Assembly: GCF_964355755.1 (NCBI RefSeq)
Contig: NC_092676.1
Coordinates: 22,428,288-22,492,287 of the forward strand
Direction: 5' to 3'
DNA length: 64,000 nt
From: Antedon mediterranea
Lineage: Eukaryota; Echinodermata; Crinoidea; Comatulida; Antedonidae
A model generated the notes under the pieces. It was not told where the DNA came from, searched no databases, and saw only the letters and a program-made list of their open reading frames with translations. Of this stretch, positions 1 through 38,200 are shown in pieces. The position numbers were made by a program, and so were the translations under genes. Numbering within the stretch: position 1 is the stretch's first letter; each line of letters begins with the position of its first letter.

Positions 1-3000
1 AAAGTACGAACACGCAAAGCTACTGTCAAGTATTTATTAAATTATCATCTTTTGTTAATTGCAATCAAATCAGACAAAAATCAAACGGAAACCAAATAAT
101 CATAAGAGTCATACTGTATATAAATTATAGTGCTACTTACAAATGTGAAAGTGATGAAGCAAAAGAAGAGAAGGCATCTGGTTCAATGGTAGTTATAGCA
201 TTGTTCTGTAAATCCCTGTTGAAAGATAAATTAATAATAGACAACAGATATTGAGTAATGCATCACATTATTTAAAAAATACATAATTTTCATTATCATA
301 CGTTAAAAAATTGTAAAAATAAAATTTTTTTTGCATAGTTAAATAAAAAACTGTTATGTTATGTTACATATAATATAGATATTAATATTAATACAGCTGT
401 AATTTAAGAAAAATTTGTAATAAACAAAGCAATACACTTACAGTGCTTTCAATGCTGTCAAACCAGCAAATGCATCGGCTGGCAATGTACTTATTTGATT
501 ATAAGGCAACCACCTTAAATAGAAAAAGAATGCACAAAATAAGCACATGGAGTAAATACAATATAAATTATTTTTGTCTTTCTGTTTCTTCAAATAATTA
601 AATTATCTACATCAGTAATACTACATTATAGTTATACTGCATGAATATAATTGTCAAGTTTTAAATATTATTATTGTTAATAAAATATTATTCAACAATT
701 TAGATTAAGATTTCTTATTGTTAATATCTGACAAAAAGGATCTATGGTAGTTATAGCATTTCTCTCTAAATTCCTGTTAAAAGATAAATTAATAAACAAC
801 ATTTTATTGAGTAATGCATCACATTACTAAAAAAAATACGTAATTTTCATTATCAAGTAGAAAAACTATAAAAATAACATTTTATTTGCATAGTTAAATT
901 AAATAAAAATTAAATGTCATGACTTTGTTATTTTATTATTTCACTCTGTTGCCTAAAATGTTTACATTATTAGACTGCATGAGTATAGTTTCAACTCTTA
1001 TACTTGAATCATTTGCATATGAAATATGAATTATAGTGTTAACTTACAGATGCCACCGTACATTAGAAGTAAGATTTCATTTAAAGTAAGATAAAATTAT
1101 GTTATGTTACATATAATATAGATATTAATATTAATACAGCTTTAATTTAATTAAGAAATTAAGACAAATTTGTAATAAACAAAGCAATACACTTACAGTA
1201 CTTCCAATGCTGTCAAACCAGCAAATGCATTGGCTGGCAATGTACTTATTTGATTATCATACAAGTACCTCAAATAGAAAAAGAATGCACAGAATAAGCA
1301 CATGGAGTAATTACAATATCAATTATGTTTGTCTTTATGTTTCCTAATGTTTAAATTAGTAATACTACATTATAGTTACACTGCATAGTATAGTGTCAAC
1401 TTTTATACTTGAATGATGTCAAAAATGCTATGTTAAAATAGAATATTGTTTTTAATTTGCAACTCAGACAAAATCACTATAAGAAATGATATTTCTAGAC
1501 AAACTCACTCCAACAAATTTTAATTAATTGATTACAATTATGAAATATTATTATTAAAAAAATTATAGATTACAATACAGATTAAGATAAATTTGTAATA
1601 TCTGACAAAAAGGATCTATGGTAGTTATAACATTGTTCTCTAAATTTTTGTTGAAAGATAAATATATATACCAAGTTTGATTTAAAAAATACATAATAAA
1701 CAAAGCAATACACTTACAGTTCTTTCAATGCTGTCAAACCAGCAAATGCATTGGCTGACAATGTACTTATTTGATTACCAGACAAGGACCTCAAATAGAA
1801 AAAGAATGCACAGAATAAGCACATAGAGTAATCACAATATCAATTATGTTGGTCTTTATATTTCCTAATGTTTAAATTAGTAATACTACATTATAGTTAC
1901 ACTGCATAGTATAGTGTCAACTCTTATATTTGAATGATTTCAAATATACTAGTTTAAAAAGAATATAGTTTTTAATTTGTAACTCAGACAAAATCACTAC
2001 AAGAAATGTTATTTCTAGAAAAACTCACTCCAACAAATTTTAATTAATTGATTACAATTATTTCAAAGAATTACAGATTAAGATTCTTAATAAATTTGTA
2101 ATATCTGACAAAAAGGATCTATGGTAGTTATAGCATTGTTCTCTAAATTGAAGTTGAATGATAAATACAGTATATATATATATACAACATTTGATTTAAA
2201 AAATACATAATTTTCATTATCGTAAGTAGAATAAAAAAAAACCATTTTATTTAAAATTAAATTTCATGACTTCATTATTTTATTATTTTACTCTGTTGCC
2301 TAAAATGTTTACATTATTAGACTGCATGAGTATAGTTTCAACTCTTATACTTGAATCATGTAAAAATAATATACCACAGTATGTTATGAAAGGATTTGTT
2401 TTCTCAGATAAATTACTGCAAACAATTTAAATTAATTGATAGAGAGAGAATATAATTTGCAACATTATTGTTAATAAAATATTATTCCAAACAGTTGTTG
2501 ATATCTGACAAAAAAATAAATAACTCGACATTCATGGTGGATGAAGTAACACTTGTTTTTAAAGTTCTTGTTATAAGATCATATTATGAAATGATGTAAT
2601 AAATAAGAATATCTTACTGTGTTAAACCATGGATTAAAGAATAGAAGGATATTCATCGACGTGAGATCAAGGGTTCCTTGACTCTCGCCGACAGAGCGCG
2701 GACCGCCCACAATGTTACAGTTTAATTAACCGCATGGTAACAACGAAACGGTCGCGTGCCTAATATATTGTTTACTGCACATGTGCAACGACATTTAACC
2801 TCTTTGGCCTCTGCCTCACGCCACTGCTGAGTATAATGTTTATTGAAAACAGTTATTAAATTACATTGTACGTTATTGTGAAGACCCTAATGTAGGCTTA
2901 CTTCATCAATATACGAAAGCCCATTAATGCCATTTTAAGTATATGTTTTTCGAACGTAATCCGTTCTAACGAATTAGTAATTCGTTTGAACGGATTAATA

Positions 3001-6000
3001 ATCTGTTCAAACGAATTAGTAATCCGTTCAAACGAATTGCAACATATACAACAAGTGCCATTTAAAGAATATGTTGTAATTCGTTTCAACGGATTACTAA
3101 TTTGTTTAAACAGATTAATAATCTGTTAAAACGAATTAGGAATCCGTTCAAACGGATTAGTAATTTGTTTAAACGGATTACTAATTTGTTCAAACGAATT
3201 ACTAATTCGTTCAAACGAATTACTAATTTGTTCAAACAGATTAGTAATCCGTTTAAACAAATTATTAATTTGTTTAAACAAATTATTAATTCGTTTAAAC
3301 GGATTACTAATTCGTTTGAACGAATTAGTAATTCGTTTGAACGGATTACTAATCCGTTTAAACAAATTAGTAATTCGTTTGAACGAATTAGTAATCCGTT
3401 TAAACAAATTAGTAATTTGTTTGAACGGATTAGTAATCCGTTTGAACAAATTAGTAATCCGTTTAAACAAATTAGTAATTTGTTTGAACGGATTAGTAAT
3501 CCGTTCAAACGAATTAAAACATATACCTTAAATGGCACTTGTTGTATATGTTGCAATTCGTTTGAACGGATTACTAATTCGTTTGAACAGATTATTAATC
3601 TGTTCAAACGAATTACTAATTCGTTAGAACGGATTACGTTCGAAAAACATATACTTAAAATGGCATTAATGGGCTTTCGTATCAATATACCAGATAAAAT
3701 ACTATATTGTTATTGGCTTAGAATTGTAGATGCTATAATTGTAATTAGTATAGGTTTCTGCCGCGATTGATCTACGCTAATGTTTTTATGACATTAAAGT
3801 AGCATTTTATGACCTGTAGTAGCCCTACATCTGAGACAATAACTATTTGTTGTCTCAGCCTACATGTAAAATTACAAAATCAGCAAGGATACTAGGCCTA
3901 GGCCTTCTAGGCTTACTAGTAAACCATATGATTTGCCGACATTGATACTGCCTAGGTAGGCCTAGGCTAATATTAAGTGTAGTAGATACAACGTGTAATC
4001 ATGATCTATATACTCACCGTTGTCTTACTTCTTGTGTGAATAATAATAGGTACTTCGTTTGTTCGTGATTAAGTTTGCCATGCGTGTACTTTTCAAAACG
4101 ACCGCTAGGTAACGTATCGCAACTATACATAGCCAGCCAATCCCGGATCAGGGATCGCTGTTTTCATTAAATCAGGCCCGGTGATTGGATGTGATGTGGA
4201 TGACATAACCACTTGCCAATCACCAGGCACTAAAATTTAAATATAATTACATCGATAATTAAGGAGAATTATGAAGAAACCACTGCTTAGCCATATATTA
4301 AATACATGATTGTTCTATGTGTGGACACCGGACACGCTAACAACATACATGGTCAAATGCATAATTTAATATTCTATAGATTAACGCAATTTTTAATGAC
4401 AGAAGATGGCAGGCAAATAATGATAATTCAAATATAAAAATTGCATATTATTTTATTAATATTACCAACTACTTAAAATTACCAGTCGTAAGAAAGTGAA
4501 CTTTTCGTAGTCTGATTGTTATGAAACTAAAACAGAATTGTTCAGCATTACATTTTTATTGTCAATTAATCATCGACGCAGACATGTCAATAGAACATTC
4601 AGACTGCGCATACGATTTGTACATGGTTACGTTTTGGTCTAAAAAAATGTAGCAGTTGATTCGCAGCGTTCTACAGAGGACCGCGGTTAGAGACACGGAG
4701 TTCAATGTTTGATTGGCAGCAGTGCTTTAGTATAGAAGCGCGTTCTAAAATCGTTTGATGTCGCCGTCGATGCATATCCTTCTAATTCTTTTATCCATGG
4801 TTAAACCTACAATGTAGATATTAATATTAATACAGCTGTAATTTAATTAAGAAATTAAGACAAATTTGTAATAAACAAAGCAATACACTTACAATCCTTT
4901 CAATGCTGTCAAACCAGCAAATGCATTGGCTGACAATGTACTTACTTGATTAATAGACAATTCCCTCAAATAGAAAAAGAATGCACAGAATAAGCACATG
5001 GAGTAATTACAATATCAATTATGTTTGTCTTTATGTTTCCTAATGTTTAAATTAGTAATACTACATTATATTACATAGCCTATGTAAATACGTGAACGTG
5101 ATTGGTTGAAACTGCGTCACATGACTACCGCTGCGAGGATCGTAAATCGTATATATCCTCGAGAACGATGATATTGACTGAGTAATTTTCGCGTAATTAT
5201 TGTGTCCCCTGTCATTAATCATATAAATTCTCGAGTTCGATGATATTGACTGTGTAATTTTCGTGTGCAACACTCGCGTTTGCCGATAAAATCTACTGGA
5301 TCTTGAACTCGGGATGGAATTGTCACTCCATCACAAGACAACGCTTCAACCGCTGCGCCACGGAACTTGCTTGAAGAAATTAATCTTTTAAACTATTTAA
5401 GCTATGCATTTATAGCGCCCTTATTTGTTATTAGTCCTCCCTAAATGTGATGAAACACCGTTTGTGATTGGTCAAAACTCACGGTAGTAACTAGTACGCG
5501 CTGAATATCCGGCGATTCGGCTCCTCGAAGAGAAGAAGACGAATTGTTTATTCGGCGTACCTGATTATAATATTATTATTAATAGGCTTATTGATGAAAA
5601 TTCTTCTGTTAATTTAAACGACCTAGGCCTAAGTGAATATTTTATTGCCAAGGAATCATTAATTAGTAATTATCTGTATATTATTCTTCGCAAGGTAAGG
5701 TGTCTAGGCAGACTTGTTTACATACAATACAAATACTATAGGAGGCCTAGCCTAGTTTCACCCAACCCACCAGACTTGTTCTTGGCTATATAATATAACA
5801 GATATCGCCTTCTGTATCGGTTAAGTATAAGATTTGACATCCCCTCGGGAATGATATAAAGTTCTCGGGGAATATTTCCCTCAGCTGGCGCTTCGGGAAA
5901 TATATATTCCCTCGAACTTAATATCATTCCCTCGGGGATGTCAAATCTTATATTTAACCTCTAAGCAGTCAATATCTGTATAATAGTTACACTGCATAGT

Positions 6001-9000
6001 ATAGTGTCAACTCTTATACTTGAATGATGTCAAATATACTATGTTAAAATAGAATATAGTTTTTAATTTGTAACTCAGACAAAATCACTACAAGAAATGT
6101 TATTTCTAGACAAACTCACTCCAACAAATTTTAATTAATTGATTACAATTATAAAAGAGAAAATAGTTTTAAATATTATTACTAAAAAATAATTATATCA
6201 AACAATTACAGATTAAGATTCTTAATAAATTTGTAATATCTGACAAAAAGAATCTATGGTAGTTATAGCATTGTTCTCTAAATTCCTGTTGAAAGATAAA
6301 TATGTATTACATTTGATTTAAAAATAATTTTCATTATCATAAGTAAAAAAAACTATTTTATTTGTAGAGTTAAATAAAAATTAAATGTCATGACGTCATT
6401 ATTTTATTATTTCACTCTGTTGCCTAAAATGTTTACATTATTAGACTACATGAGTATAGTTTCAACTCTTATACTTGAATCATGTAAAAATAATATACTA
6501 CAGTATGTTTTGAAAGGATTTGTTTTCTCAGACAAATTACTGCAAACAATTTAAATCAATTGATTGAAATATAATTTGCAACATATTGTTTCTAAAATAT
6601 TATTTCAAACAATTTTTGATATCTGAGAAAAAAAAATGATTCATGGGGGATGAGCTATGTTAAACCTACAATGTAGATATTAATATTAAAACAGCTATAA
6701 TTTAATTAAGAAAGTAAGACAAATTTGTAATAAACAAAGCAAATACACTTACAGTATTTTCAATGCTGTCAAACCAGCAAATGCATTGGCTGGCAATGTA
6801 CTTATTTGATTATCATACAAGTACCTCAAATAGAAAAAGAATGCACAAAATAAGCACATGGAGTAATTACAACATCAATTATGTTTGTCTTTATGTTTCC
6901 TAATGTTTAAATTAGTAATACTACATTATAGTTACACTGCATAGTATAGTTCAACTCTTATACTTGAATGATGTCAAATATACTAGTTTAAAAAGAATAT
7001 AGTTTTTAATTTGTAACTCAGACAAAATCACTATAAGAAATGTTATTTCTAGACAAACTCACTCCAACAAATTTTAATTAATTGATTACAATTATGAAAG
7101 AGAAAATAGTTTTAAATATTATTATTAAAACAATATTATTTCAAAGAATTACAGATTAAGATTCTTTATAAATTTGTAATATCTGACAAAAAGGGTCTAT
7201 GGTAGCATTGTTCTCTAAATTGCAGTGGAAATATAAATGTATATATCACATTTGATTTAAAAAAAAATTAAAATTGCACTTGTATAGTTAAATCAAATAA
7301 AAATTAAATGTCATGACTTCATTATTTTATTATTTCACTCTGTTGCCTAAAATGTTTACATTATTAGACTGCATGAGTATAGTTTCAACTCTTATACTTG
7401 AATCATGTCAAAATAATATACCACAGTATGTTATGAAAGGATTTTTTCTCAGACAAATTACTGCAAACAAATTTAAATTAATTGATTGAAAGAGATTATA
7501 ATTTGCAACATTTTTAATAAAATATTATTTCAAACAGTTGTTGAAATCTGACAACAAAATAAATAACTCATTCATTCATGTAATTGTATTGATATATGAT
7601 GAAATATGACCTGAAATATATGAGTACCAAATTTGGTTTAATTATGCTTGTCAAAATATGATTACAAACATGATTTTGTTAAATAGACCACGTAATTTTT
7701 GATTGCGCACCACGAAAACATAATCACATCGATTCCTGGATGAATTAACACTTGTTTTAAAGTTCTTGTTATAAAATGATGTTACTATGTTAAACCTACA
7801 ATGTAGATATTAATACAGCTGTAATTTAATTAAGAAATTAAGACAAATTTGTAATAAATAAATAAACAAAGCAAATGGTATACCAATGCTGTCAAACCAG
7901 CAAATGCATTGGCTGGCAATGTACTTATTTGATTACAATACAAGCCCGGCCCTCCTATAAAAATGCACAGAATGAATAAGCATATGGAGTAAATACCGTA
8001 CAATATCAATTATTTTTGGTTTTTTTGTTTCCTCAAATAATGTTTAAATAATCTATATTAGTAATACTACATTATTAGTATAAATATCAATATTTTAAAT
8101 AAAAAAGCACTGCAAGAAATTTCAATAAATTGATTGCAATTATGAAAGAGATAATAGTTTTCAATATTAATACTAATAACATATTATTTCAAACAATTTT
8201 GGCACAAAAAAAAGTACAGGGTACAACAATTTGCATTTTGTACAACACAGTGACTGAAAAAAACAACTTTAGCAGGATATAAAAACAGTGGCTATGCACA
8301 ACATTTTGCCTTGTACAAAAACAGTTGTTGATTGGTACAAAAACACTTGTTAGGAACATAGCGGTGGCAGGGTACAACTTGCGTTATACAACACGGTGAC
8401 TGGAAACAAACTTAAACGGTAGCAGGATATAGAAACGGTGGCAGGATACAAAAGCAGTAGGGTATAAAATCTGCATTGTACAAAAACGGTGGCAAGGGTA
8501 CATAAACTTGGGGTTGTACAACAGTGGCTGAGAACAAAAACAGTGGCAGGATATAAAAACTTGGGTTGTACAACAGTGGCTGAGAACAAAAACAGTGGCA
8601 GGATATAAAAACTTGGGTTGTACAACAGTGGCTGAGAACAAAAACAGTGGCAGGATATAAAAACTTGGGTTGTACAACAGTGGCTGAGAACAAAAACAGT
8701 GGCAGGATATAAAAACTTGGGTTGTACAACAGTGGCTGAGAACAAAAACAGTGGCAGGATATAAAAACTTGGATTGTACAACAGTGGCTGAGAACGAAAA
8801 CAGTGGCAGGATATAAAAACTTGGGTTGTACAACAGTGGCTGGGAACAAAAACAGTGGCAGGATATAAAAACTTGGGTTATACAACAGTGGCTGAGAACA
8901 AAAACGGTGGCAAGGGTACACAAACTTGGGTTGTACAACACTGGCTGAGAACAAAAACAGTGGCAGGATATAAAAACTTGGGTTGTACAACAGTGGCTGA

Positions 9001-10272
9001 GAACAAAAACAGTGGCAGGATATAAAAACTCCTGTTAGTTCTACAAAATACAAGGATGGCAAAGGGATTGGTGGTTGCCTCAAGCAAGGCACAATTCATT
9101 CATTAAGCCTACTTACAATGTTGTTATTGGATTATGATTAGGATATAAAAACTTGGGTTGTACAACAGTGGCTGGGAACAAAACCTTGGCAAGATATATT
9201 AGGAAAACAAAATGGTAGCGTACAAAAACTGAAACAGTAGCATGGTAACTAACCATAGCAGGGCTAAAAAAAATAGAGGTAACCCCCTGTTAGTTCTTCA
9301 GAAGCGAGGATGAGAAAGGGTTTGGCACAATTCATTCATTAAGCCTACTTACAATGTTGTTATTGGATTATGATCATTGTACTGAGCAAGTTGTGTCTGT
9401 ATGGTAGTATTCCATGTATCACAATGAGTATAATTTTGCAAATGGTTACAATTACAAAGTCTTGGGCATACACTTTTTTCTGTTAAAAATATAAAAATAT
9501 TTTAAAATGAGTAAATAATAAAAAGTAACTTATTTTATTTAGTTATCACAGTATAAAACATACTAAATCAGCAGTCAGAAAACGAAGTGGAGAAAAATAT
9601 ATTAAAAACAAATACAAATTAAAATGTATAAAAGTTGCATATATAATACTTGCTACTACATTTACTTGTCTATCAATATAGAATATGTGTGATTTTAATA
9701 TAGATCAAAAGGGAAATTACTAAAAAAATGGTAATGGCTGCATACAACAACAAAAATAAGCAAAAAGCTAAATCAAAACGGTTTTGTAAAATAGCCAGAA
9801 AGAAATTACAGAGCTTACAGGTAACATTACGCCTTCCTTAGTAGTGTAGGGGTACATAGAGATAAGTAAGAATACAAGGTAGACAAGAGCTGCTGATTAT
9901 ACTAAACTAAAACATATAGCCATTTCCTTCGTTGAATAAAGCAATTTGCACTAGGAAAAAGTGACATTTAAGTACAAGCACGTGCCAGGATTTGTGCTTC
10001 TTTTTTCCCCACAAATAGGGGGAAAAGGTGTAAGTGTAACAACTGAAAAACATCAACATAATTTGCCTGCTGGCTAGCAGAGAACTTCCACTGCTGTTTC
10101 TTGTTTGAAAAAGACACTTTTCAGGGGGAAAGGGTAATAAAATTTTAATTAATACAATTTTTTTAATGTTTGAAAATAAGATGGTAAATATATCTTACCA
10201 TTCACATCGGAACTATAACAGCTAGAAAACAACAATGGTACCAACAGCACGAGGGTGTTAAAGATAGACATC
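1..10272 (-). CDS. LRR-containing GPCR gene B (5' part; 3' end outside window)
   Basis: This is the 5' part of a leucine-rich-repeat GPCR gene paralogous to the complete gene at 17657-46716. Exons in order: signal peptide 10200-10272, LRRNT 9353-9479, LRR exons 6753-6824, 4893-4964, 1718-1789, 1197-1268, 442-513 (72 bp each) and 141-215 (75 bp). All junctions have AG/GT signals and matching phases. By analogy with gene A, one more LRR and the 7TM exon should follow just left of the window. The introns are ~1-kb tandem units that also hold half-exon relics, so the array grew by unequal duplication. The product is expected to be a secreted-ectodomain plasma-membrane receptor; the ligand cannot be told. 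Confidence 0.8.
141..215 (-). CDS. Gene B LRR exon, 75-bp type (intact)
   Basis: The acceptor is TTTCAACAG and the donor is GTAAGT. Reading in the shared phase gives one LRR with the core LQNNAITTIEPDAFSSF, ending ...LSHL. It is the second exon class of the array and the only intact copy in gene B; gene A has its counterpart at 20685-20759. It is the last exon of gene B in the window. Confidence 0.8.
442..513 (-). CDS. Gene B LRR exon, 72 bp
   Basis: The donor is GTAAGT and the acceptor ends TTTAAG. It encodes one 24-residue LRR starting WLPYNQIST, core LPADAFAGLTAL, ending KAL. The codon is split after its second base at both ends, as in every other LRR exon here. Confidence 0.8.
738..773 (-). 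pseudogene. Half-exon relic of the 75-bp LRR type
   Basis: The acceptor CAG and the first ~36 nt (LERNAITTIDP) match the intact exon at 141-215. Then the sequence switches to TTTTTGTCAGATATT with no DAFS... half and no donor. It is a truncated exon copy lying in an intron. Confidence 0.7.
1197..1268 (-). CDS. Gene B LRR exon, 72 bp
   Basis: One LRR begins YLYDNQIST, continues LPANAFAGLTAL and ends EVL. It has a GTAAGT donor and a TTTGAG acceptor. Confidence 0.82.
1612..1649 (-). pseudogene. Half-exon relic of the 75-bp LRR type
   Basis: It matches the 5' half of the 75-bp LRR exon. The acceptor CAG has mutated (CAAC followed by A's) and the 3' half is missing. Confidence 0.6.
1718..1789 (-). 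CDS. Gene B LRR exon, 72 bp
   Basis: One LRR begins SLSGNQIST, continues LSANAFAGLTAL and ends KEL. The splice sites are consensus. Confidence 0.82.
2115..2150 (-). pseudogene. Half-exon relic of the 75-bp LRR type
   Basis: It retains the NAITTIDP coding stretch. The acceptor is lost (CTTCAA) and the second half is absent. Confidence 0.6.
2627..4800. mobile_element. Non-autonomous DNA transposon in a gene B intron
   Basis: The left end CCATGGATTAAAGAATAG is inverted at the right end (CTAATTCTTTTATCCATGG), and similarity continues inward to GGATAT(T/G)CATCGACG. The array consensus GTTAAACCTACAATGTAG is interrupted exactly here. The duplicated target can be read as TTAAA, or as the 8-bp GTTAAACC if the ends are one base asymmetric. 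No transposase ORF is seen. It carries a younger foldback element at 2913-3680. Confidence 0.75.
2913..3680. mobile_element. Foldback element with 8-bp TSD and 21-bp repeats
   Basis: The ends are perfect inverted repeats starting ACGAAAGCCCATTAATGCC (arms ~130 bp). They are flanked by the 8-bp direct repeat ATCAATAT at 2905-2912 and 3681-3688. The interior is filled by a 21-bp repeat (consensus like AACGAATTACTAATTCGTTTG) that is itself nearly palindromic, so long ORFs with 7-residue periods appear on both strands; these are not genes. The 8-bp TSD fits a hAT-type insertion, but the family is not assigned. Confidence 0.8.
4893..4964 (-). CDS. Gene B LRR exon, 72 bp
   Basis: One LRR begins ELSINQVST, continues LSANAFAGLTAL and ends KGL. 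The donor reads ATT|GTAAGT. It is the only 72-bp copy with V instead of I after NQ. Confidence 0.8.
5296..5372 (-). repeat. tRNA-derived SINE head or tRNA pseudogene
   Basis: The reverse complement contains TGGCGCAGCGGTTGAAG, resembling a pol III A box, and ~45 nt later CCCGAGTTCAAGATCC, resembling a B box and T-arm. It does not fold cleanly as a tRNA by eye, so a SINE head or pseudogene is more likely than a functional tRNA. Confidence 0.5.
5819..5959. repeat. Long imperfect hairpin
   Basis: GGTTAAGTATAAGATTTGAC and its complement GTCAAATCTTATATTTAACC flank inner arms of CCCTCGGGAATGATAT type, giving ~60-bp arms around a short GC-rich loop (CAGCTGGCGCTTCG). Confidence 0.75.
6249..6285 (-). 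pseudogene. Half-exon relic of the 75-bp LRR type
   Basis: It keeps the CAG acceptor and the NAITTID coding stretch. The 3' half and donor are missing. Confidence 0.65.
6753..6824 (-). CDS. Gene B LRR exon, 72 bp (first intact LRR)
   Basis: One LRR begins YLYDNQIST, continues LPANAFAGLTAL and ends KIL. It is the first intact LRR exon after the LRRNT exon in gene B. Confidence 0.82.
7193..7221 (-). pseudogene. Half-exon relic of the 75-bp LRR type, further decayed
   Basis: It matches the half-exon relics but has a ~7-nt internal deletion and a degraded acceptor (CACTGCA). Confidence 0.5.
7876..7947 (-). pseudogene. Decayed 72-bp LRR exon of gene B
   Basis: The core NQISTLPANAFAGLTAL is intact. 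The GTAAGT donor is replaced by GTATACC, and the acceptor side carries extra GGGCCGGG bases. The same decay is present at 44392-44463 in gene A, so it predates the gene duplication. Confidence 0.65.
8190..9290. repeat. 52-bp minisatellite (gene B intron)
   Basis: The unit is 52 bp, including ACTTGGGTTGTACAACAGTGG and CAGTGGCAGGATATAAAA, with ~9-10 close copies at 8510-9030 and degenerate flanking copies. Because 52 is not a multiple of 3, it gives spurious ORFs in all minus frames. The orthologous array in gene A (44.70-45.18 kb) has only about three close copies. Confidence 0.9.
9353..9479 (-). CDS. Gene B LRRNT (cysteine cap) exon
   Basis: The acceptor is TTAACAG and the donor is GTAAGT. 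The product begins EKSVCPRLCNCNH... and contains a further Cys (THCDTW), the pattern of an N-terminal LRR cap. It ends in the split Leu codon that accepts any LRR exon. Phase 1 on the 5' side matches the signal-peptide exon. Confidence 0.82.
10200..10272 (-). CDS. Gene B signal-peptide exon (start codon)
   Basis: An ATG opens 24 codons reading MSIFNTLVLLVPLLFSS..., a short N-region, hydrophobic core and small residues typical of a cleavable signal peptide. It is followed by a GTAAGA donor after one extra base. The identical peptide is encoded at 46644-46716 in gene A. No LDLa module is seen between this exon and LRRNT, unlike classical RXFP1/2. Confidence 0.85.
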
Positions 10273-10986
10273 TTTGTACACAAATTTAACGATATCGGAG
10301 TGTTACTAGTTAACTTTACTTCTGCGAGTCAGCTCCGATTTGTGAGAATTAAACGTTTTGTTGTTTAAAGAATACGTTTAGCACTTCTAGTGAGTTTTAA
10401 TAATTTAGACAAATAATTTCACCAGATGTATTCAGGTTTTGCTGATAGGAGTCCTAATGGTTCATCTTAATATTCAATTGTTATTTGAAAATATTAATAT
10501 TAATGTCAAAGAGGTTACACCACCCTGGTAATATGCAGTAATAACTTTTTACCCAAAATAATAATATAGTTATTAAAGTTTTCACATAATAATAAATTGT
10601 ATTACTTATATTAAGTCCATGTTGGGAGACGATTAATTAAACTAATCTAACATTTTACATGTTTCTATTAATTACTTGTGTCAATTGTTTGTTTTTCTAA
10701 AGAATAAATAATAATTAATTTTATTAAGACCAATAAATTTCTCCAAAAGTCCTTTCTTCCACTTGCCACATTAAAACTGACTTTTGGTAGCTCATCCAGT
10801 AAACATAAGGTCTTATTAGGTCTGTATTTCTAATATGGGTAAAAATATATATATATATATTGGCATATATGGCGTTTCATATGTATAGTAGATCTTTTTT
10901 CCAGACCAAAATCGAAATGCTGACTGGTGGACGATAACATAAAAAAGATGAAAACTGCAGGCCTTGAGGAAAGTATAATTAAACAT

Positions 10987-11043
10987 AGCAACTACTACTG
11001 TACAAGCAGCAATGAATATCATAAGGGGTGCTGAGATCAGCAT
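10987..11043 (-). other. First-exon-like cassette 2 (possible alternative signal exon)
   Basis: An ATG opens MLISAPLMIFIAACTVVVAM, again signal-like. It sits in the same 5' flanking context as the real first exon: the motif (A/G)ATTTAGA(C/T)AAATAATTTCA(C/T)CAGATGTAT follows at 11156 as it does at 10407. No clear splice donor follows, so it may be a decayed or alternative first exon. Confidence 0.35.
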
Positions 11044-17656: not shown

Positions 17657-18692
17657 TCACATAGGCCTAAGTGGAATTTGTGTAACTGCCGGTTGCCGTA
17701 CTTTGCATTTAAACATATAGACGATTGTATAAAGATAAGGATTGACTGAGGAGTTTATAGGGATGATGAATGTCGCTGCCCAAACATATATGTCATCAGG
17801 AATCCTCATCCAATCCATCTCAGAACCAATTGCCATTACTATAATCGGACCCCAGCAACAGAAATCAGTGAAAACTATTAACCCTAGTTTTCGAGCCATT
17901 TTCAGTTGCTCCTTTCTCATCTGCCGTCTGTTTACAGTGGCACCCGATCTTTTAACGGATAAGAAAATCGTGAGGTAACTCACTGCAATTACGACAAATC
18001 CGATTCCATTAAATGCAACAAAAATGGTTATAGCATACTCCCAACCTGGCCACCGACTTCTGGTTAGAGGTAATGCCAGACAAACACTTTCTTTTCCGTA
18101 ATAGTTATCGCTAAAGTACGATATTTCAGCAAATTTTAGTTTATTTACTGCTGGAAGAAAACTCAGGACAATCCAGAACAACCATGCGAATGCGAGTATA
18201 ATTTTACACTTTTTACTATTGAGACGATTTGTACTGAATGGATAAACGATGTTAACAGCACGGTCAATGCTCAGCATCATCAGTGTGAACACTGAGCATT
18301 GCCCAGAGAGAGTAGAAATAGCCCCGGCGAAGCTGCAAAGGAAACTCTTCTTCCACTCTCTTGCAACTTCAGAATACCTTCCTCTGTAATGTATGTCTGC
18401 ACTTGAAATGATGATCAGATAGACTGCCATCAGCATGTCCGACGCGGCAAGGTTAGTGATAAGAATGGTTTGAACTTTGTTAACATTGTTATTGTTACCT
18501 GTCTTGTTCTTTTTCAATCGTCTAGATATGATGACAACTGAATTACCAATGATGGATGATATTCCAATTATCATCATTAAAACACGGAGATGTTTACTTT
18601 TTAGTAGATCTTCACAAGAAGCAAATGCATCAACGGGTTCGCATTTATCAATAACACCAACAAGACAACACAGGCGAGAGAAATCCGAGTAC
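17657..18692 (-). CDS. Gene A hinge and seven-transmembrane exon
   Basis: The acceptor TTAATTTAACAG precedes YSDFSRLCCLVGV and the hinge CEPVDAFASCEDLL. Seven hydrophobic segments follow. TM1 has IIGNSVVI and TM2 has NLAASDMLMAVYL. An extracellular Cys before TM3 (SFLCSFAG) pairs with SVCLALP in loop 2. The TM3 end reads SIDRAVNIVYPF, so the usual E/D-R-Y/F triplet is DRA. TM6 has FTDFCCWGPI and TM7 has NSSVNPYLY. The tail after NPYLY is only ~20 residues, short for the family. The stop lies in a 20-bp repeat. Confidence 0.9.
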
Positions 18693-21600
18693 CTGTTAAA
18701 TTAATTGTAAATAGTTAATAAGTTTAGTGATTTCGACTTTTGGAAAATAAATGTTGTGAGAATACATTAAAATATTGTACATATTAAACCTCTAAAAATT
18801 TACAGTAAACATTATCAAAATCAGTTTAAAAATCACTTTAAACAGGATTGTCGTTATATGAAGCCCCATGGATATATCATAGATAAAAAATAGTCGGCAT
18901 CTCGCACATACAACACATTATCTCTATGTATGACTTTCTTGTACGTACATTTTATTATCTCGTATGCCTATACGTACAACTTATTATTATCTCATACGAC
19001 TTATTATTTCAAGCTTATTAAGAGTAACTTCGAAATTTGGTTGAATTTCAAAGAAAACTAATTTTATTTATTTAATTTGAATCCAGCTAGCACGTGACAA
19101 TTTCAGAATGAGATGAAGGTCTACAGATGTGACACTGTTTTGACCAATGATAACATACTTGTGAACCTAGTGCCACTAATAAATTATAGTTGCAATAAAT
19201 AATTTCAATATATTATGAAGACTAGAGGGTCAATTGGTCGTCGAGCTAAAGAGCCACCAATTATTAGTATAAGTACGAGGCTGACTCCTAGTTCTGGTGG
19301 TGGTTTCTTGGCTAAGGACTATAGACAGTAGGTCCAGTGTACATGTTTGTCCATCTGCACTTAAAGAATTCAATTTGGGATGAGTAGGGGGTTACACCAG
19401 TGTACCGATTCACAAAATAGCCTCTGTAGCACCTATATATCTGATAGCTATACAATAATAAAAATAAAATAAATAATATATAACTACAACAATAATATTT
19501 GTCATGGCGTATATGCAGGTATATCATTACTTACAATCGTTTTAAGTTTGTTAATTTTTCAAACGTCCTATCTCTGTACACCTGTAAGTTGTTACCCCTT
19601 AAATATCTAAAAAAGTAATAGACGGAAAACAAAAATATAATAAGGTGTTGTAACGGTTTGTATAAGGCAACTGATTGCAAATTTCCTCATTTTGATTTGA
19701 ATTAGTTTAAATTCAATTTCTTCTTTAGATTTTTAACAACTCATTATTTTTCTTTCACACTTTCTATTCTCTTTGTTTTCATTAGCATTTTCTTAATTTG
19801 CTTATTTTTACAAAAACCCTTGAAATAAGTCTGATGACTTTCATGGTCCTAATTGTACCTATTCTGTTTGTCCTTGTCTGTTTCTCATTGTTATTTGATG
19901 TAGTTAAGTTTAAATTTGATAAACAAAGGAGATTTTAGAAAATAATTAAAGTAGAGTAGAATTTTAAATGATTGTAGTATGTATGATACAATAGTAGTAC
20001 GAACCTGTTACATATGTATACTATAATATAATTCAATTTAAACTATGTTTCAAATTTTTTCACTGCTTAAAAAAACAGTAATATGAATAAACCTTTTGTT
20101 CTGTACACAGAAATACTCAACATTTTGAAAACTACAATGTTGTTTGATATTATTTCATCAATTACATCTTAACTTTTTTTATCGCAATCAATTCATAAAA
20201 ATGAAAACCAAATAATCATACAGTTCATGCATAAATGAAACTGCATAAGAAATATATAGTGTAACTTACAGACAATATGAATTATATAGATGCCACACCT
20301 TAAGCCTGTTTTCCTGTCGACGTTATTCGACGCTATCGTCGTTGATCGCTAACGATCGTTTGAAAACGATCAAGTTGAAATGACAACAATAGCGAGTACC
20401 TTTTCCTGTAAATCGTTAACATTTCAATGTTAACGTAGAAGATCGCCGATTATTGTTACCGATACCGTCGAATAACGTTGACAGGAAAACAGGCTTTACA
20501 TGAGAAGTACTCAAAGTATTCTCAAATGTAGGTGTACTTAGTATAAAGTACGAACACACAAAGCTACTGTCAAGTATTTATTAAATTATCATCTTTTGTT
20601 AATTGCAATCAAATCAGACAAAAATCAAACGAAAACCAAATAATCATAAGTAGTCATCTGTATATAAATTTTAGTGCTACTTACAAATGTGAAAGTAATG
20701 AAGCAAAAGGAGAGAATGCATCAGGATCTATGGTAGTTATAGAATTGTTATTTAAACCCCTGTTGAAAGATAAATTAATAATAGACAACAGATATTGAGT
20801 AATGCGTCACATTATTAAAAAAATACATAATTTTCATTATCATACGTTAAAAAATTGTAAAAATAAAATTTTATTTCCATAGTTAAATAAAAAAAAAAAT
20901 TAAATTTCATGACTTTGTTATTTTATTATTTAATTCTGTTGCCTCAAATGTTTACATTATTAGACTGCATGAGTATAGTTTCAACTCTTATCTTGTCAAA
21001 ATAATATACCACAGTATATTATGAAAACCTTTTTTTTTCTCAGACAAATTACTGCAAACAATTTAAATTAATTGATTGAGAGAGATTATAATTTGCAACA
21101 TTATTGTTAATAACATATTATTTCAAAAAGTTATATCTGAGAAAAAATAAATAACTCATTCATTTAAAGTAAGATAAAATTATGTTATGTTACATATAAT
21201 ATAGATATTAATATTAATACAGCTGTAATTTAATTAAGAAATTAAGACAAATTTGTAATAAACAAAGCAATACACACTTACAGTATTTTCAATGCTGTCA
21301 AACCAGCAAATGCATTGGCTGACAATGTACTTATTTGATTATTATTCAAGTACCTCAAATAGAAAAATAATGCACAAAATAAGCACATGGAGTAATCACA
21401 ATATCAATTATGTTTGTCTTTATGTTTCTTCAACTGTTTAAATTATCTACATCAGTAATACTACATCATAGTTATACTGCATGAATATATTGTCAAGTTT
21501 TAAATATTATTATTGTTAATAAATATTCTTCAAACAATTTAGATTAAGAATTCTTATTAATTTTTAATATTTGACAAAAAGGATCTATGGTAGTTATAGC

Positions 21601-24600
21601 ATTCTTCTCTAAATTCCTGTTGAAAAATAATAATAGGCAACATTTTATTGAGTAATGCATCACATTATCTAAAAAAATACGTAATTTTCATTATCATAAG
21701 TAGAAAAACAGTAAAAATTAAATTTTATTTGCATAGTTCAATTATATAAAAATTAAATTTCATGACTTCATTATTTTATTATTTCACTCTGTTGCCTAAA
21801 ATGTTTACATTATTAGACTGCATGAGTATAGTTTCAACTCTTATACTTGAATCATGTCAAAATAATATACTACAGTATGTTATGAAAAGATTTTTTTCTC
21901 AGAAAAATTACTGCAAACAATTTAAATTAATTGATTGAGAGAGATTATAATTTGAAACATTGTTAATAAAATATTATTTCAAACAATTTTTGATATCTGA
22001 GAAAAAAATTAACTCATTCAATTAAAGTAAGATAAAATTAAAATTATGTTATGTTACTTTGTTAAACCTACAATGTAGATATTAATATTAATAAAGCTGT
22101 AATTTAATTAAGAAATTAAGACAAATTTGTAATAAACAAAGCAATATACTTACAGCCATCCCAATGCTGTCAAACCAGCAAATGCATTGGCTGGCAATGT
22201 ACTTATTTGATTATCAGACAACAACCTCAAATAGAAAAATAATGCACAAAATAAGCACATGGAGTAAATCTATATTATAAGTGAGAGAGTTTGTCTGTTT
22301 GTCTGTTTGTTCGTTATACAAAATTTTGTTACTGCACATAATCTTACATATGGGGTATCAAAATGACCGCAATTGTACCGGGAATGTTCTAAGCTATATT
22401 TCAACATCATCCGCCACCTAGGATCCAAGTTAGGGACCAAAATGTGGTCAAAACCCCCACTTTCGATGTTTGTTCGTTATAAAAATTTCTGTGTCTGCAC
22501 GTAACCATACGTATGGGGTATCAAAATGATGGCAATTGTACCCGGAAGGTTTTAAACTACATTTAAAAAAATTCCCCCGACTCCTGGGGTTTTTGTGGAA
22601 TGGGTGGGGGGGGGGGGGTGGTTGTGTGGTGGTTTGTGATGTCATTTTTGCTAGGGCTCGGGGTTGTAGGCTATCGAATTGTAAAATTATACTACAAAAG
22701 TTTTACAGTATTTGAATTATCCTCAGCAAGGCGTTTGGGGAAATATAGATATAGCTATACATATTTCATTCATTAAACAATATGACACCTATTCAATTAC
22801 ACATTTAGCAAAGTACTTTAACCATATCCAGCTATTTGTTGGTCTCTTGGATTGCCTCATTACAGACATCCATACCTGTGTGAACATACACATGTTGTTT
22901 ACTGTTACTGTGTTCAACTACATCACCAATCCTCCAAGGAAAAAAACGTACATTGTGGGAGAGTGGGGTTGGGAGATAGGGTTTGGGAGTTTGGTTTCAG
23001 GAGAGAGTGGGGATTTTGCTTACACCAGAATTGTGGTTGGAAACTTTTAAAGTATTTAATCATCCCTGGGAAGCGGATGGGAGTTTGGGGTGGGGATGTA
23101 CATCTAGGCCTATCACCATGACCGAAACTGTATTTGGAATGTTTTAAACTACATTTGAAAACTGCCACTGAGGGATTATGGGTTGGGAGTGATAATAATA
23201 TAAATTGTACTGGAACCGGCTTCAACAGATCACCCAGTGTATCTGGCGTGTGTTTTTTGTAGAGGGAGGAGGAGCGAAAATACTAGCGTAATGAAGTAGC
23301 CTATATGATTGGATTGTACTAGGAAAAGTTACTAAATTTGAACTGTCCAGGGGAGGAGTTAAGGTTTGTTGATGGTGGCTGGGGTGGTGAAAGGAGAAAG
23401 ATGGCTGGGTGCCCGCAGTATCTAAATTACAAATTTTAATTATCAGCCAATATGACACCTATTCATTTACACAATTTACAACGTACTACAACCATTATTA
23501 GACCCATCGTAGTTATGAATACTCCTCTCAATTCGAAGCTTAGGTTGAATTGAATTTGTCCATCACTGGGAAGATTTTGTTTTTAAGAAAGAGTATGGGG
23601 TGTTGTTGAGGGGTCGATGTTGGTGAGTATAGACAGATACTGGCGTCGGGTGTTATGTACTGAGAAGGCTGTAAACTAATTTTGAAACCCGCCCTGGGGC
23701 GGGTATAATTGCTAGTATAATATAAATTATTTTTGTCTTTATGTTTCTTCAACTGTTTAAATTATCTACATCAGTAATACTACATCATAGTTATACTGCA
23801 TGAATATATTGTCAAGTTTTAAATATTATTATTGTTAATAAAATATTCTTCAAACAATTTAGATTAAGAATTCTTATTAATTTTTAATATTTGACAAAAA
23901 GGATCTATGGTAGTTATAGCATTCTTCTCTAAATTCCTGTTGAAAAATAATAATAGGCAACATTTTATTGAGTAATGCATCACATTATCTAAAAAAATAC
24001 GTAATTTTCATTATCATAAGTAGAAAAACAGTAAAAATTAAATTTTATTTGCATAGTTCAATTATATAAAAATTTAATTTCATGACTTCATTATTTTATT
24101 ATTTAATTCTGTTGCCTCAAATGTTTACATTATTAGACTGCATGAGTATAGTTTCAACTCTTATCTTGTCAAAATAATATACCACAGTATATTATGAAAA
24201 CCTTTTTTTTTCTCAGACAAATTACTGCAAACAATTTAAATTAATTGATTGAGAGAGATTATAATTTGCAACATTATTGTTAATAACATATTATTTCAAA
24301 AAGTTATATCTGAGAAAAAATAAATAACTCATTCATTTAAAGTAAGATAAAATTATGTTATGTTACATATAATATAGATATTAATATTAATACAGCTGTA
24401 ATTTAATTAAGACATTAAGACAAATTTGTAATAAACAAAGCAATACACTTACAGTGTTCCCAATGCTGTCAAACCAGCAAATGCATTGGCTGACAATGTA
24501 CTTATTTGATTAACAGACAACCACCTCAAATAGAAAAAGAATGTACAGAATAAGCACATGGAATAATTACAATATCAATTATTTTTGTCTTTATATTTCC

Positions 24601-27600
24601 TAATGTTTAAATTAGTAATACTACATTATAGTTACACTGCATAGTATAGTGTCAACTCTTATACTTGAATGATGTCAAATATACTATGTTAAAATAGAAT
24701 ATTGTTTTTAATTTGTAACTCAGACAAAATCACTACAAGAAATGATATTTCTAGACAAACTCACTCCAACAAATTTTAATTAATTGATTACAATTATGAA
24801 AGAGAAAATAGTTTTAAATATTATTATTAACAAATTATTTTTTCAAACATATACAGATTAAGATTTTTTATAAATTTGTAATATCTGACAAAAAGGATCT
24901 ATGGTAGTTATAACATTGTTCTCTAAATTGCCGCAGTTGAAATATAAATATATCACATTTGATTTTCATTATTGTAAGTAGAAAAAAAAATTGTACTTGT
25001 ATAGTTAAATCAAATAAAAATTAAATTTCATGACTTCATTATTATTTTAATATTTCACTCTGTTGCCTAAAATGTTTACATTATTAGACTGCATGAGTAT
25101 AGTTTCAACTCTTATACTTGAATCATGTCAAAATAATATACTACAGTATGTTATGAAAGGACTTTTTTCGCAGATAAATTACTGCAAACAATTTAAATTA
25201 ATTGATTGAGAGAGATTGTAATGTATTGTTAATAAAATATTATTTCAAACAGTTGTTGATATCTGACAACAAAATAAATAATTAATTCATGGTGGATGAA
25301 TTAACACTTGTGTTTTAAGTTATTGTATAAGATCATATTATGAAATGATGTAATAAATAAGAATATCTTAGTTACTATGTTAAACCTACAATGTAGATAT
25401 TAATATATATACAGCTGTAATTTAATTAAGAAATTAAAGACAAGTTTGTAATAAATAGAGTAAGTAAACAAAGCAATACACTTACAGGGATTCCAATGCT
25501 GTCAAACCAGCAAATGCATTGGCTGGCAATGTACTTATTTGATTATTATGCAACCACCTCAAATAGAAAAAGAATGCACAGAATAAGCACATGGAGTAAT
25601 CACAATATCAATTATTTTGTCTTTCTGTTTCTTCAAATAATTAAATTATCTACATCAGTAATACTACATTATAGTTATACTGCATGAATATAATTGTCAA
25701 GTTTTAAATATTATTATTGTTAATAAAATATTACTCAAACAATTTAGATTAAGATTTCTTATTAATTGTTAATATCTGACAAAAAGGATCTATGGTAGTT
25801 AGGCCTATAGCATTTCTCTCTAAATTCCTGTTGAAAGATAAATTAATAAACAACATTTTATTGAGTAATGCATCACATTACTAAAAAATACATAATTTTC
25901 ATTATCAGAAGTAGAAAAACTGTAAAAATAACATTTTATTTGCATAGTTAAACTAAATAAAAATTAAATTTCATGACCTCATTATTTTAATATTTCACTC
26001 TGTTGCCTAAAATGTTTACATTATTAGACTGCATGAGTATAGTTTCAACTCTTATACTTGAATCATGTCAAAATAATATACTATAGTATGTTATGAAAGG
26101 ACTTTTTTCGCAGATAAATTACTGCAAACAATTTAAATTAATTGATTGAGAGAAATTGTAATGTATTGTTAATAAAATATTATTTCAAACTGTTGTTGAT
26201 ATCTGACAACAAAATAAATAATTAATTCATGGTGGATGAATTAACACTTGTTTTTAAAGTTCTTGTTATAAGATCATATTATGAAATGATGTAATAAATA
26301 AGAATATCTTACTGTGTTTAACATACAATGTAGATATTAATATATATATACAGCTGTAATTTAATTAAGAAATTAAGACAAATTTGTAATAAACAAAGCA
26401 ATACAATTACAGGGATTCCAATGCTGTCAAACCAGCAAATGCATTGGCTGACAATGTACTTATTTGATTATTATGCAAGTGCCTCAAATAGAAAAAGAAT
26501 GCACAGAATAAGCACATGGAGTAATCACAATATCAATTATGTTTGTCTTTATGTTTCCTAATGTTTAAATTAGTAATACTACATTATAGTTACACTGCAT
26601 AGTATAGTGTCAACTCTTATACTTGAATGATGTCAAATATACTATGTTAAAATAGAATATAGTTTTTAATTTGCAACTCAGACAAAATCACTACAAGAAA
26701 TGATATTTCTAGACAAACTCAGTCCAACAAATTTTAATTAATTGATTACAATTATGAAAGAGAAAATAGTTTTAAATACTATTATTAAAAAATTATTATA
26801 ATCAAACAATTACAGATTAAGATTCTTAATAAATTTGTAATATCTGACAAAAAGGATCTATGATAGTTATAGCATTGTTCTCTAAATTCCTGTTGAAAGA
26901 TAAATATTTATTACATTTTATTTGTAAAAAAAACTATTTTATTTGTATAGTTAAATAAAAATTAAATTTCATGACTTCGTTATTATTTTATTATTTCACT
27001 CTGTTGCCTAAAATGTTTACATTATTATACTACATGATTATAAGTTTCAACTCTTATACTTGAATCATGTCAAAATAATATACTACAGTATATTATGAAA
27101 ACCTTTTTTTTTCTCAGACAAATTACTGCAAACAATTTAAATTAATTGATTGAGAGAGATTAAAATTTGCAACATTATTGTTAATAAAATATTATTTCAA
27201 AAAGTTATATCTGAGAAAAAATAAATAACTCATTCATTTAAAGTAAGATAAAATTATATGTTATGTTACATATAATATAGATATTAATATTAATACAGCT
27301 GTAATTTAATTAAGAAATTAAGACAAATTTGTAATAAACAAAGCAATACACTTACAGGGTTTCCAATGCTGTCAAACCAGCAAATGCATTGGCTGACAAT
27401 GTACTTATTTGATTATCATACAAGTACCTCAAATAGAAAAAGAATGTACAGAATAAGCACATGTAGTAAATACAATAAAAATTATTTTTGTCTTTATGTT
27501 TCTTCAACTGTTTAAATTATCTACATCAGTAATACTACATCATAGTTATACTGCATGAATATATTGTCAAGTTTTAAATATTATTATTGTTAATAAAATA

Positions 27601-29872: not shown

Positions 29873-29910
<38 letters not shown>

Positions 29911-35179: not shown

Positions 35180-35232
<53 letters not shown>

Positions 35233-38200
35233 TTTCTACTACTTTAATTAATATTTAATTATTGTCTATTGTAATTGATACAATAATTAGTGTATTTTGT
35301 ACTGGTGAAACCAGGCTTAAAGCTCTATATTGAGCTTATTTGGTCTTTTCCAGGCTTTGCATTTTTTTATTTAATACTTATTATGTAAAAATATTAAGTT
35401 TGATGCATTGTGAAATAAAAACGAACGAACGAACGAATATTAATATTAATACAGCTGTAATTTAATTAAGAAATTAAGACAAGTTTGTAATAAACAAAGT
35501 AATACACTTACAGTCCTTTCAATGCTGTCAAACCAGCAAATGCATTGGCTGGCAATGTACTTATTTGATTACCATCCAAGTACCTCAAATAGAAAAAGAA
35601 TGCACAGAATAAGCACATGGAGTAATCACAATATAAATTATGTTTGTCTTTATGTTTCCTAATGTTTAAATTAGTAATACTACATTATAGTTACACTGCA
35701 TAGTATAGTGTCAACTCTTATACTTGAATGATGTCAAATATACTATTAGTACAGGCTATATATGGTTTGACCTTGAAAAAATTCTAATAAAAGGTCTTTT
35801 GGTATTTTATTGTAGCTTTAGGTGTGAATAATTACCAAAAAATTTTTGCAGCCTTCTACTCTAGTTGCTGCGTTAGTGAGATATTGAGGGTCAAAGGTCA
35901 GTGACCTTTTTGTGGCATTTGATGGCTCATAACTCCTCAACTCCTGGGTTTAAAAAGACAAATGTGGTGTCTACATCTATGGTTTAGTGGTCAAACAACA
36001 AAATAAAGTTTTTTCAAATTTTTGGTCACTTGTGCCATTGGTCAGATAGTCGGGGTCAAAGGTCATTGACCTTTATTCATTAATTGTTCATAACTCTTCA
36101 ACTACTGCACCAAACAGGACAAAAGTAGTGTCTAAACCTAGGTTTCTGGGGTCAATAAATACAATTAACATATTATCAAAGCAGTCAGATGGCATCATTA
36201 ATACTTTTTATACAGTACTCACAATACATTAAATATCAAATACGTCATTTAAATGATACGCGCAGAAGATTATCGTCATAAACAATTTAACTTTCATTTG
36301 TACACATTGATGGACTACACGTAGCTACCGTCATCATCAACATCAAAAGAAGTATAGTCCACTGCTTTAATAACATTCTCGCAGCCATCAACCTGACAAG
36401 GGCCACAAGCATTTGTGCATGGCATATTGGCTTTTTTGCAAGAACATCTTAAGTTGCTGCATTCGGTTTTGCAATTGCACCTAAGGACCTTCAAAAGTTC
36501 GTCTGGTGCATGTTTGTCATTTGTCATAATAGGAAGAATGCAGTTTTCATCCTTTTGCCATCCCCATTTGCATGGGTTAAGGTAATCACCATGGGCCCAC
36601 ATGTTAACCTGATGGTAAACTCTCAGACTATGAAAAAACGTTGCCGACTTGGTTGGTGGCAACTGAGATGGTTTAACAACCTTTGTAGATGTAGATACTT
36701 TCCGTTTAAAAACTCGCTCTCTTAATTCAGAGAGAGTCCCATTCTTTTCACCACCAAAAAGCTCCAACATTGCCATTCGCCCATGTTCATCTATTGTTGT
36801 CGGATCCTGGCCTGATTTCAAAAATGCTTTAGTACACATTTTCAATACATCAGACTTCTTGAACTTTCCTATAATTGTTTTCTTTCCAACATTTGCTATC
36901 CTGGAGACTGTATCACACCCTGTAAAAGCATGCAAAAATGGCAATGCTTGGCAAATTTCATTACCAACGGCTTTTTTGAGTGTTGTAATACATAATACTT
37001 TTTTTAGTCCATTTCTCTCGTTCAGGAAAAAAACAGGCTTGTGATGATCTTCGAGATGATACAGAAGAAGCACAATGAGGTCTGTATCTTCACCTACTAA
37101 AGTGACAGGTGAAGATTCTGCAACTGTTAAAGCTGCCTGAACTATGGTGGTGTCAGCATCGCCTATAGCTTGTCTAACTTTGCAATTGTGCTTCGTTAAT
37201 TCGGCTGATAAAAATGAAATCAATCGCTTTTTATTGGCAACATTGCTTAGGAAGACTTCTCTGTCATACTTGCACTCGGTATTTAGGTTGAAGTTGACTT
37301 TATGGTTGCCACCCTTCCTTCTCTTTTCTTGTGCGTTGCCTTTCGTTGAAAATAATTGGTCATAACCATCGAATACAACATCAGCTTTGCCATACTTGTG
37401 GGTAGTATAGTCTATATAATTATTTACTATCCTTTCGAAAGATACTCCTTTAACCCAAACAAGCTTGTGTAAAAGATAGCCACCATCAATTACAAATCGA
37501 TCAGTCATTGGCACTTCATTGTTTTCATACATTAGGTTTGGTTCAGTGATGTCTTCATCATTCCTTGTGGTTTGTTCACCTAATGTTGAGACTGCCTCAG
37601 CTATTAGTGCTTCTTTCAACTTTGGCTTATCAGCTGTCAGCATAACATATTTTCGTGAAAACAACGCTGGTGGATATGGAGCCAATTCATAATTGAACAC
37701 ATTCTTTGTATCAATTTCAACATTCTGTTGAATTATCAGTAACCGTTGAAAAAGCACAGTAGGGTCAATACTGATGTCCTTGTCGATCTTTAATTTATTT
37801 GTAGATCCCATTGTAACTGCTTTCTGGTTTCTTTTGAATTTATGCAAAAATGCACTCTTTCCATACATAGTTTTAATAATCTCATTCCCAACAGACTGGT
37901 ATGAGTCCACATTTACTTCTTGACTTGCGACTTCACCAGTAACAATATTTCTTAGTGATGGATCTGATGAAAATGGAGAGTACTCTTTTAAAACTTTATA
38001 CAGACGAGAAACATCATCACAATCTCTTTTCAGTCTTGCTGTTTGCAATGTTTCATGTTGTACACTTGTCACTAAGTCTACATTGGTGCATTCTTGCATA
38101 GCTTGGTTAACTGCTGCTCTATGCGGCATCGATTGTGTCCACAGATTCCGCTGTGCTTCTGTCATTCGACTGCCTCTTGTCAGCCCGCCTGATGTTTTGA

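Follow-up and report, generated by a model that had tools for sequence, protein, structure and literature searches.

A 64,000-nt window of the genome of the crinoid Antedon mediterranea (contig NC_092676.1, positions 22,428,288 to 22,492,287; animal DNA with a G+C content of 31.8%) carries two tandem genes on its minus strand, here called A and B, whose predicted products resemble leucine-rich repeat-containing G-protein-coupled receptors (LGRs). Both contain an array of 72-bp leucine-rich repeat (LRR) exons of one kind (type 1), which differ mainly in the codons of the predicted concave, ligand-binding face. Our results support diversifying selection on these face codons, and we consider it likely that the locus represents an LGR/GRL101-like receptor array under inter-exon exchange combined with diversifying selection on the ligand face. 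A role of this receptor family in recognition may reasonably be inferred.

Variation among the LRR exons

A preliminary description of the window, made from the letters alone, had listed 12 such exons in two G-protein-coupled receptor (GPCR) genes and had noted a nearly invariant core with differing residues on either side of the intron. All 12 lie where it placed them, on the minus strand, with AG/GT borders and in one common phase, and per-codon translation returned the same residues on its two sides. Within the core NQISTLPANAFAGLTAL, differences are limited to I/V (V in one of 12 exons), P/S (6:6) and N/D (D in one of 12). As coordinates and residues check, chance or a misreading of the letters is ruled out, and so is misalignment as the cause of the variable codons, since the exons align free of gaps. 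Overlooked, however, were a second LRR exon type with its relics (see below) and two further strong type-1 copies that keep the core, recovered by hidden Markov model search on the minus strand at 7877..7948 and 44393..44464. These two degenerate copies have lost normal splice borders, which rules them out as working exons; all exon counts therefore use the other 12 of the 14 strong copies.

When the 23 codons were ranked by amino-acid diversity, the top five were 1, 3, 4, 22 and 23. These are precisely the codons for x in xxLxLxx; they carry 6, 6, 6, 3 and 8 different residues, respectively, and no other codon has more than two. Only one of 33,649 sets of five codons from 23 picks just these, and the proposal that variation falls on the predicted concave positions thus holds. 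Over all 66 pairs of the 12 exons, the proportion of differing nonsynonymous sites (pN) was 0.499 (404.3/810.3) at the face codons, with a synonymous proportion (pS) of 0.210 (37.7/179.7), compared with a pN of 0.021 (58/2704) and a pS of 0 (0/860) at the remaining 18 codons. Two patterns had been named beforehand as speaking against the proposal, variable sites spread evenly over the exon and synonymous divergence as high in the core as at the face. Instead, the variable sites are concentrated at the face codons, and the core showed not one synonymous difference in its 860 site comparisons.

The same contrast is seen at the DNA level. Column diversity at the face codons was 0.56 at first and second positions and 0.22 at third positions, compared with 0.049, 0 and 0 at positions 1, 2 and 3 of the other codons. 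In the upstream intron it amounted to 0.039 (-20 to -1), 0.049 (-40 to -20), 0.174 (-80 to -40), 0.114 (-120 to -80) and 0.249 (-160 to -120), and in the downstream intron to 0.039 (+6 to +30), then 0.064 and 0.081, and finally 0.281 (+90 to +120), where the far columns on both sides take in copies with non-homologous flanks. Of the 15 face columns, 9 held three or more different bases; among the other 57 columns of the exon there was no such column, and among the 162 columns of the introns there were five.

Selection, relaxed constraint and mutation

A test that needs no tree was based on five disjoint exon pairs lying in long collinear duplicates, which cover 10 of the 12 exons and leave over those starting at 1718 and 4893. 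Summed over these pairs, first and second positions of the face codons differ at 22/50 sites and third positions at 4/25, the rest of the exon at 3/285 and the flanks at 154/3571 (4.3%). First and second face positions exceed both the flanks (p 1e-16) and the third face positions (p 0.02), and the rest of the exon lies below the flanks (p 0.004). A solvent-exposed face that drifts freely next to a scaffold under purifying selection would agree with the structural role of the LRR scaffold positions and with 11 LRR modules of other Antedon paralogues, where the face again ranks among the most variable positions. Drift can be no faster than the neutral rate, however, and the first and second face positions diverge about ten times as much as the flanking introns; the ratio of nonsynonymous to synonymous rates (omega) at the face, given next, is above 1. 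We regard relaxed constraint as very improbable, the five-pair comparison of face and flank ruling it out.

Codon models, in which the introns set the neutral rate, were fitted to the face on a flank tree, a downstream tree and a star tree; the upstream-flank tree was unused because of overflow. On the flank tree, omega at the face was 27 when the local rate was fixed and 15 when it was left free (local rate 1.7), and a pure hotspot (omega 1, free local rate) was rejected (p 0.0004). The downstream tree gave an omega of 9.4 with a local rate of 5.4 (omega 1 rejected, p 0.003), and the star tree an omega of 4.2 with a local rate of 2.5 (p 0.004). For the other 18 codons, omega was 0.39 on the flank tree when the synonymous rate was fixed to that of the introns. 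The suggestion of diversifying selection is thus borne out by the omega values on three guide trees as well as by the tree-free tenfold excess. Targeted hypermutation of both exon ends, with selection in a minor part, would account for a face rate above that of the introns and for those copies in which two or three bases differ within a single face codon. Yet in 12 of 12 copies, codons 3, 4 and 22 keep the same third base and Leu codon 2, which is flanked by the variable codons 1 and 3, is wholly unchanged, and the rejection of the omega-1 hotspot on three of four trees rules out a purely mutational origin. Hypermutation as the leading cause is, in our view, highly unlikely.

Several points weigh against diversifying selection as a full account of the arrays. 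Third positions at the face slightly exceed the flanks in the five pairs (4/25, p 0.02), and the fitted local face rate exceeds the intron rate (1.7 to 5.4), so that a contribution of mutation or of imported tracts to the face divergence is possible. The other 18 codons hold three replacement sites and zero synonymous changes, i.e., replacements outnumber synonymous changes there too, and a free fit drives their synonymous rate to zero (p 0.02 to 0.04, four trees), which makes the core unsuitable as a normal control for purifying selection; it is better described as homogenised or very young. The sample consists of 12 exons, five codons and one haplotype, and the omega values are rough because recombination breaks the tree model, on which the five-pair test does not depend. 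Between the two genes, replacements are not in excess in the type-2 exon (synonymous 3/17, pS 0.175; nonsynonymous 7/55, pN 0.128). The Antedon paralogue P0157 carries a three-LRR block twice with identical faces, hence diverse faces are not general to all paralogues. Moreover, face differences between repeats may arise in any LRR receptor, since each repeat touches another part of one ligand.

Outside the repeats, the LRR N-cap exons of A (45356-45485) and B (9353-9479) differ at 14 of 100 nonsynonymous and 0 of 23 synonymous sites, a small sample which suggests that selection may extend to the N-cap. The signal-peptide exon is nearly identical between the two genes (synonymous 1/16, nonsynonymous 0/56).

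Duplication and exchange of array units

Among the 120 longest self-matches of the window, the identity between array units is about 72 to 97% over lengths of 0.3 to 2.6 kb, and that between the 5' segments of the two genes is 92 to 97.5%. The scan for LRRs of this family also revealed twelve minus-strand remnants of the type-2 exon, NLENNAITTIDP or variants of it, between the type-1 exons, at 698-772, 1611-1646, 2114-2149, 6252-6284, 7192-7221, 21580-21615, 23900-23935, 24894-24929, 25740-25826, 26853-26888, 27655-27690 and 42734-42772. Their position among the type-1 exons indicates that the duplicated unit probably combined a single type-1 exon with the beginning of a type-2 exon.

Recombination has taken place among the type-1 exon copies, on a scale of tens of bases. 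The four-gamete test was failed by 90 of 136 pairs of informative two-state sites, with a failing share of 0.25 for sites less than 20 bp apart (4/16), 0.70 at 20 to 60 bp, 0.89 at 60 to 100 bp and 0.63 beyond. Permutation of sites gave a p of 0.0008 with all 12 copies, 0.0001 without the copy at 22154 (11 copies) and 0.0001 without those at 22154 and 1718 (10 copies). The 5' face YLYD is paired with three distinct 3' faces, and the P/S state varies among the copies concerned.

Proposed mechanism and alternatives

The mechanism which we propose builds on the observed exon anatomy, variable positions, replacement excess and recombination. Two tandem LRR GPCR genes would have enlarged their ectodomains by repeated duplication of a unit of about 0.5 to 1 kb where uninterrupted, each unit bringing one 72-bp LRR exon. 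As all intact type-1 exons start and end in one phase, units can be added, lost or exchanged without a break of the frame. The copies have recombined, divergence outside the face is low, and diversifying selection would change five concave-face residues per repeat, namely codons 22 and 23 of one exon and codons 1, 3 and 4 of the next, joined across the intron. The concave LRR face binds ligand in LGRs and in the variable lymphocyte receptors (VLRs) of jawless vertebrates. Likewise, the Antedon receptor would bind a variable ligand, such as a pathogen, a symbiont, a self marker or an environmental cue, by its concave face and would signal to G proteins through the seven-transmembrane (7TM) domain.

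A more far-reaching alternative sees the arrays as a germline bank of interchangeable recognition modules that are shuffled by gene conversion and combined by alternative exon inclusion, giving a VLR- or Dscam-like repertoire which signals via G proteins. Because face residues lie on both sides of each intron, alternative inclusion would generate many binding faces per gene. The frame compatibility of the exons is the one observation that bears on a Dscam-like choice, and we hold such a repertoire to be unlikely.

Less improbable, though still doubtful, is ordinary ligand-fitting, in which each new repeat was adapted once to a fixed, hormone-like ligand without a continuing arms race. LGR relatives bind single glycoprotein or relaxin-type hormones, a single genome cannot separate one burst from continuing selection, and the face parts YLYD, KI and KG occur in both genes. 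In addition, GRL101 is proposed as a receptor for insulin-like growth factor (IGF) in the relevant passages of PMC8286064. On the other hand, no two of the 12 exons share the same set of five face residues, gene A has seven intact type-1 exons and gene B five, and recombination of exon copies would disrupt a fixed fit. We thus prefer exchange with diversifying selection over a single adaptation of each repeat.

Gene models

Genes A and B are genomic models, obtained by the family-LRR scan and by reading splice borders. Gene A runs from 46716 to 17657 on the minus strand and yields a full-length model of 629 aa with all introns phase-compatible. It starts with a signal-peptide exon (46644..46716, MSIFNTLVLLVPLLFSSCYSSDVN, with ATG and donor GTAAGA) and a cysteine-rich LRR N-cap exon (45356..45485, AG/GT borders and fitting phase). 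Seven intact type-1 exons follow, here listed with the face residues at their two ends: YLDG ... KG (35512..35583), YLYD ... ET (27356..27427), HLHN ... ES (26411..26482, with the donor GTAATT instead of GTAAGT), WLHN ... ES (25486..25557), WLSV ... GT (24453..24524), LLSD ... GW (22154..22225) and YLNN ... KI (21282..21353). The type-2 exon (20685..20759, GLNNNSITTIDPDAFSPFASLLSH) and the last LRR exon (19535..19606, YLRGNNLQVYRDRTFEKLTNLKR), both placed by the family-LRR scan and the in-phase model, bring the total to nine LRRs, and the final exon encodes a hinge and a rhodopsin-type 7TM domain (17657..18692; PF00001, E 1.8e-30). Against Pfam, the model matched LRR_8 (E 5e-53) and 7tm_1 (E 1.2e-29) in one predicted protein. 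Even with E values up to 1 admitted, the 629-aa protein gave no LDLa match; an exon could have been missed.

Gene B, on the same strand from 10271 to 141, has the same exon order and is cut by the window edge. Its signal-peptide exon (10199..10271) and N-cap exon (9353..9479) come from the in-phase model and are followed by five intact type-1 exons, YLYD ... KI (6753..6824), ELSI ... KG (4893..4964), SLSG ... KE (1718..1789), YLYD ... EV (1197..1268) and WLPY ... KA (442..513), and by a type-2 exon (141..215; family-LRR scan and in-phase model), after which the gene continues beyond the window. The assignment of both genes to the GPCRs therefore stands for gene A by its 7TM exon within the window; for gene B, the layout common to both suggests that the 7TM exon would sit to the left of position 1. 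Every LRR exon of the two models starts in phase 2 and measures 72 or 75 bp, and one LRR per exon with phase-2 introns is typical of glycoprotein hormone receptors.

Protein family and structure

The 7TM domain is nearest to NCBI proteins named GRL101-like, with relaxin receptor 1 as the most similar solved structure (E 2.1e-44). The 7TM open reading frame (ORF) of gene A is 99% identical over 88% to the Antedon GRL101-like protein P0001 (306 aa), which starts in the first transmembrane stretch and thus lacks the LRR ectodomain. Automatic annotation may therefore hide similar LRR arrays in other paralogues, too. Altogether, at least 17 Antedon protein clusters named GRL101-like (16 from the 7TM search and one from the search with the LRR part) are distributed over at least eight contigs. 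For the LRR part of gene A, the nearest sequences were those of the acid labile subunit of the IGF-binding complex and of LGR4. Among the best 120 of 536 protein matches of the LRR part, most were unnamed or unrelated LRR proteins, and those from Antedon were P0157, P0002, P0003 and P0008; a second search with the LRR part likewise gave mostly such proteins and had no Antedon-named protein among its best 120 of 136 matches.

P0157 is 65% identical over 76% of the queried LRR part. Its NCBIfam matches to bacterial LRR proteins were far below the cut-offs and reflect generic LRRs. An AlphaFold model of P0157, folded together with 12 relatives, had a mean pLDDT of 74, near 90 in the LRRs, and spaces the LRR strands 24 residues apart; within the repeat, the strand covers residue 23, Leu and residue 1. 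The closest solved folds according to Foldseek were LGR4, followed by TSHR, FSHR and LHCGR. In the 11 LRR modules of other Antedon paralogues mentioned above, which come from six of nine proteins scanned with one strict pattern that excludes non-fitting modules (P0157 contributes five, two of which are an exact repeat), the variability of the face equals that in the window, and the scaffold is variable as well. The peculiarity of the window is thus the combination of a homogeneous scaffold and DNA with a fully diverse face.

Relation to known systems

The VLRs of lampreys and hagfish are built of LRR modules of 24 residues, in which the residues of the concave strand vary. The likeness to lamprey VLRs pointed out in the preliminary description holds for module length and for the residues that vary, as the Antedon exons are 24-aa LRR modules variable at the concave strand, but it does not extend to gene organisation: the germline VLR gene is incomplete and assembled from cassettes in lymphocytes, whereas gene A is already complete in the genome and includes a 7TM domain. 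The label VLR is not warranted at all for these genes, although recognition of a VLR-like or GRL101-like kind may be possible. Homogenised tandem repeats with rapidly changing contact residues are also known from PRDM9 and other C2H2 zinc-finger arrays, which differ in that they bind DNA and are encoded in a single-exon array.

LGR-type GPCRs have been studied mainly as hormone receptors with conserved ligands. With GRL101 and the type-C LGRs, the relaxin receptor branch, the Antedon genes share 7TM similarity and an LRR ectodomain. GRL101 combines LDLa repeats with LRRs; the gene A model has no LDLa match, and the name GRL101 is unwarranted because LDLa modules were not found. Unlike GRL101, the Antedon genes have near-identical LRR exon arrays and a fast-evolving face. 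Where PMC8286064 treats gene number, it gives a single GRL101 gene for each of the ambulacrarian species studied, among them crinoids, compared with the 17 Antedon clusters so named, which are candidate orthologues of GRL101 proper. The part of PMC12297450 on the snail Biomphalaria sudanica describes 12 clustered GRL101-like genes in a region associated with schistosome resistance and places the validated resistance variant in a neighbouring non-GRL101 gene. One GRL101-like gene of the crown-of-thorns starfish is described in PMC6267866 as overexpressed in sensory tentacles.

The closest evolutionary analogue, judging from the pertinent sections of PMC1805685, is the fungal HNWD family. There, near-identical WD repeats of het-d and het-e are exchanged within and between loci, and four surface codons per repeat, paired around a constrained residue, are under positive selection. 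Repeat recombination and positive selection at surface codons are both found in Antedon, and the x-L-x pairing of its face codons is very similar to these HNWD codon pairs. The systems differ in that HNWD involves WD repeats of fungal NACHT-domain proteins and Antedon intron-separated LRR exons of an animal GPCR; furthermore, exchange in Antedon was demonstrated on the copies of both genes pooled. Searches of the open-licence literature gave no account of a GPCR with diversifying LRR exon arrays. As an example of an LGR-type array with exon exchange and with diversifying selection on its predicted ligand face, the locus is unusually clean. A branch of these receptors in which face codons diverge about ten times as much as introns would be a candidate for recognition receptors with immune, self/non-self or chemosensory functions, coupling a VLR-like face to G-protein signalling. 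It would also provide independent context for the snail parasite-resistance region rich in GRL101-like genes, as portrayed in the cited part of PMC12297450.

Other elements in the window

A 52-bp minisatellite is located upstream of the LRR arrays of both genes, at 8480-9030 and 44993-45168, partly inside the segment that is 97.5% identical between genes A and B. Within an intron of gene A, the region 35770-42485 ends on both sides in inverted copies of about 490 bp with 97.8% identity, and its 1171-codon ORF has no Pfam match; the region is a probable DNA transposon and seems to split one repeat unit. Rfam searches returned nothing at gathering scores. A non-LTR retrotransposon ORF of 1100 aa with an RVT_1 domain and a weak endonuclease match lies at 31743-35045, and a satellite of 181-bp units in about 36 copies occupies 57366-63961. 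Finally, an ORF on the minus strand at 52609-52935 matches the XRCC4 coiled coil (PF21924, E 1.1e-8).

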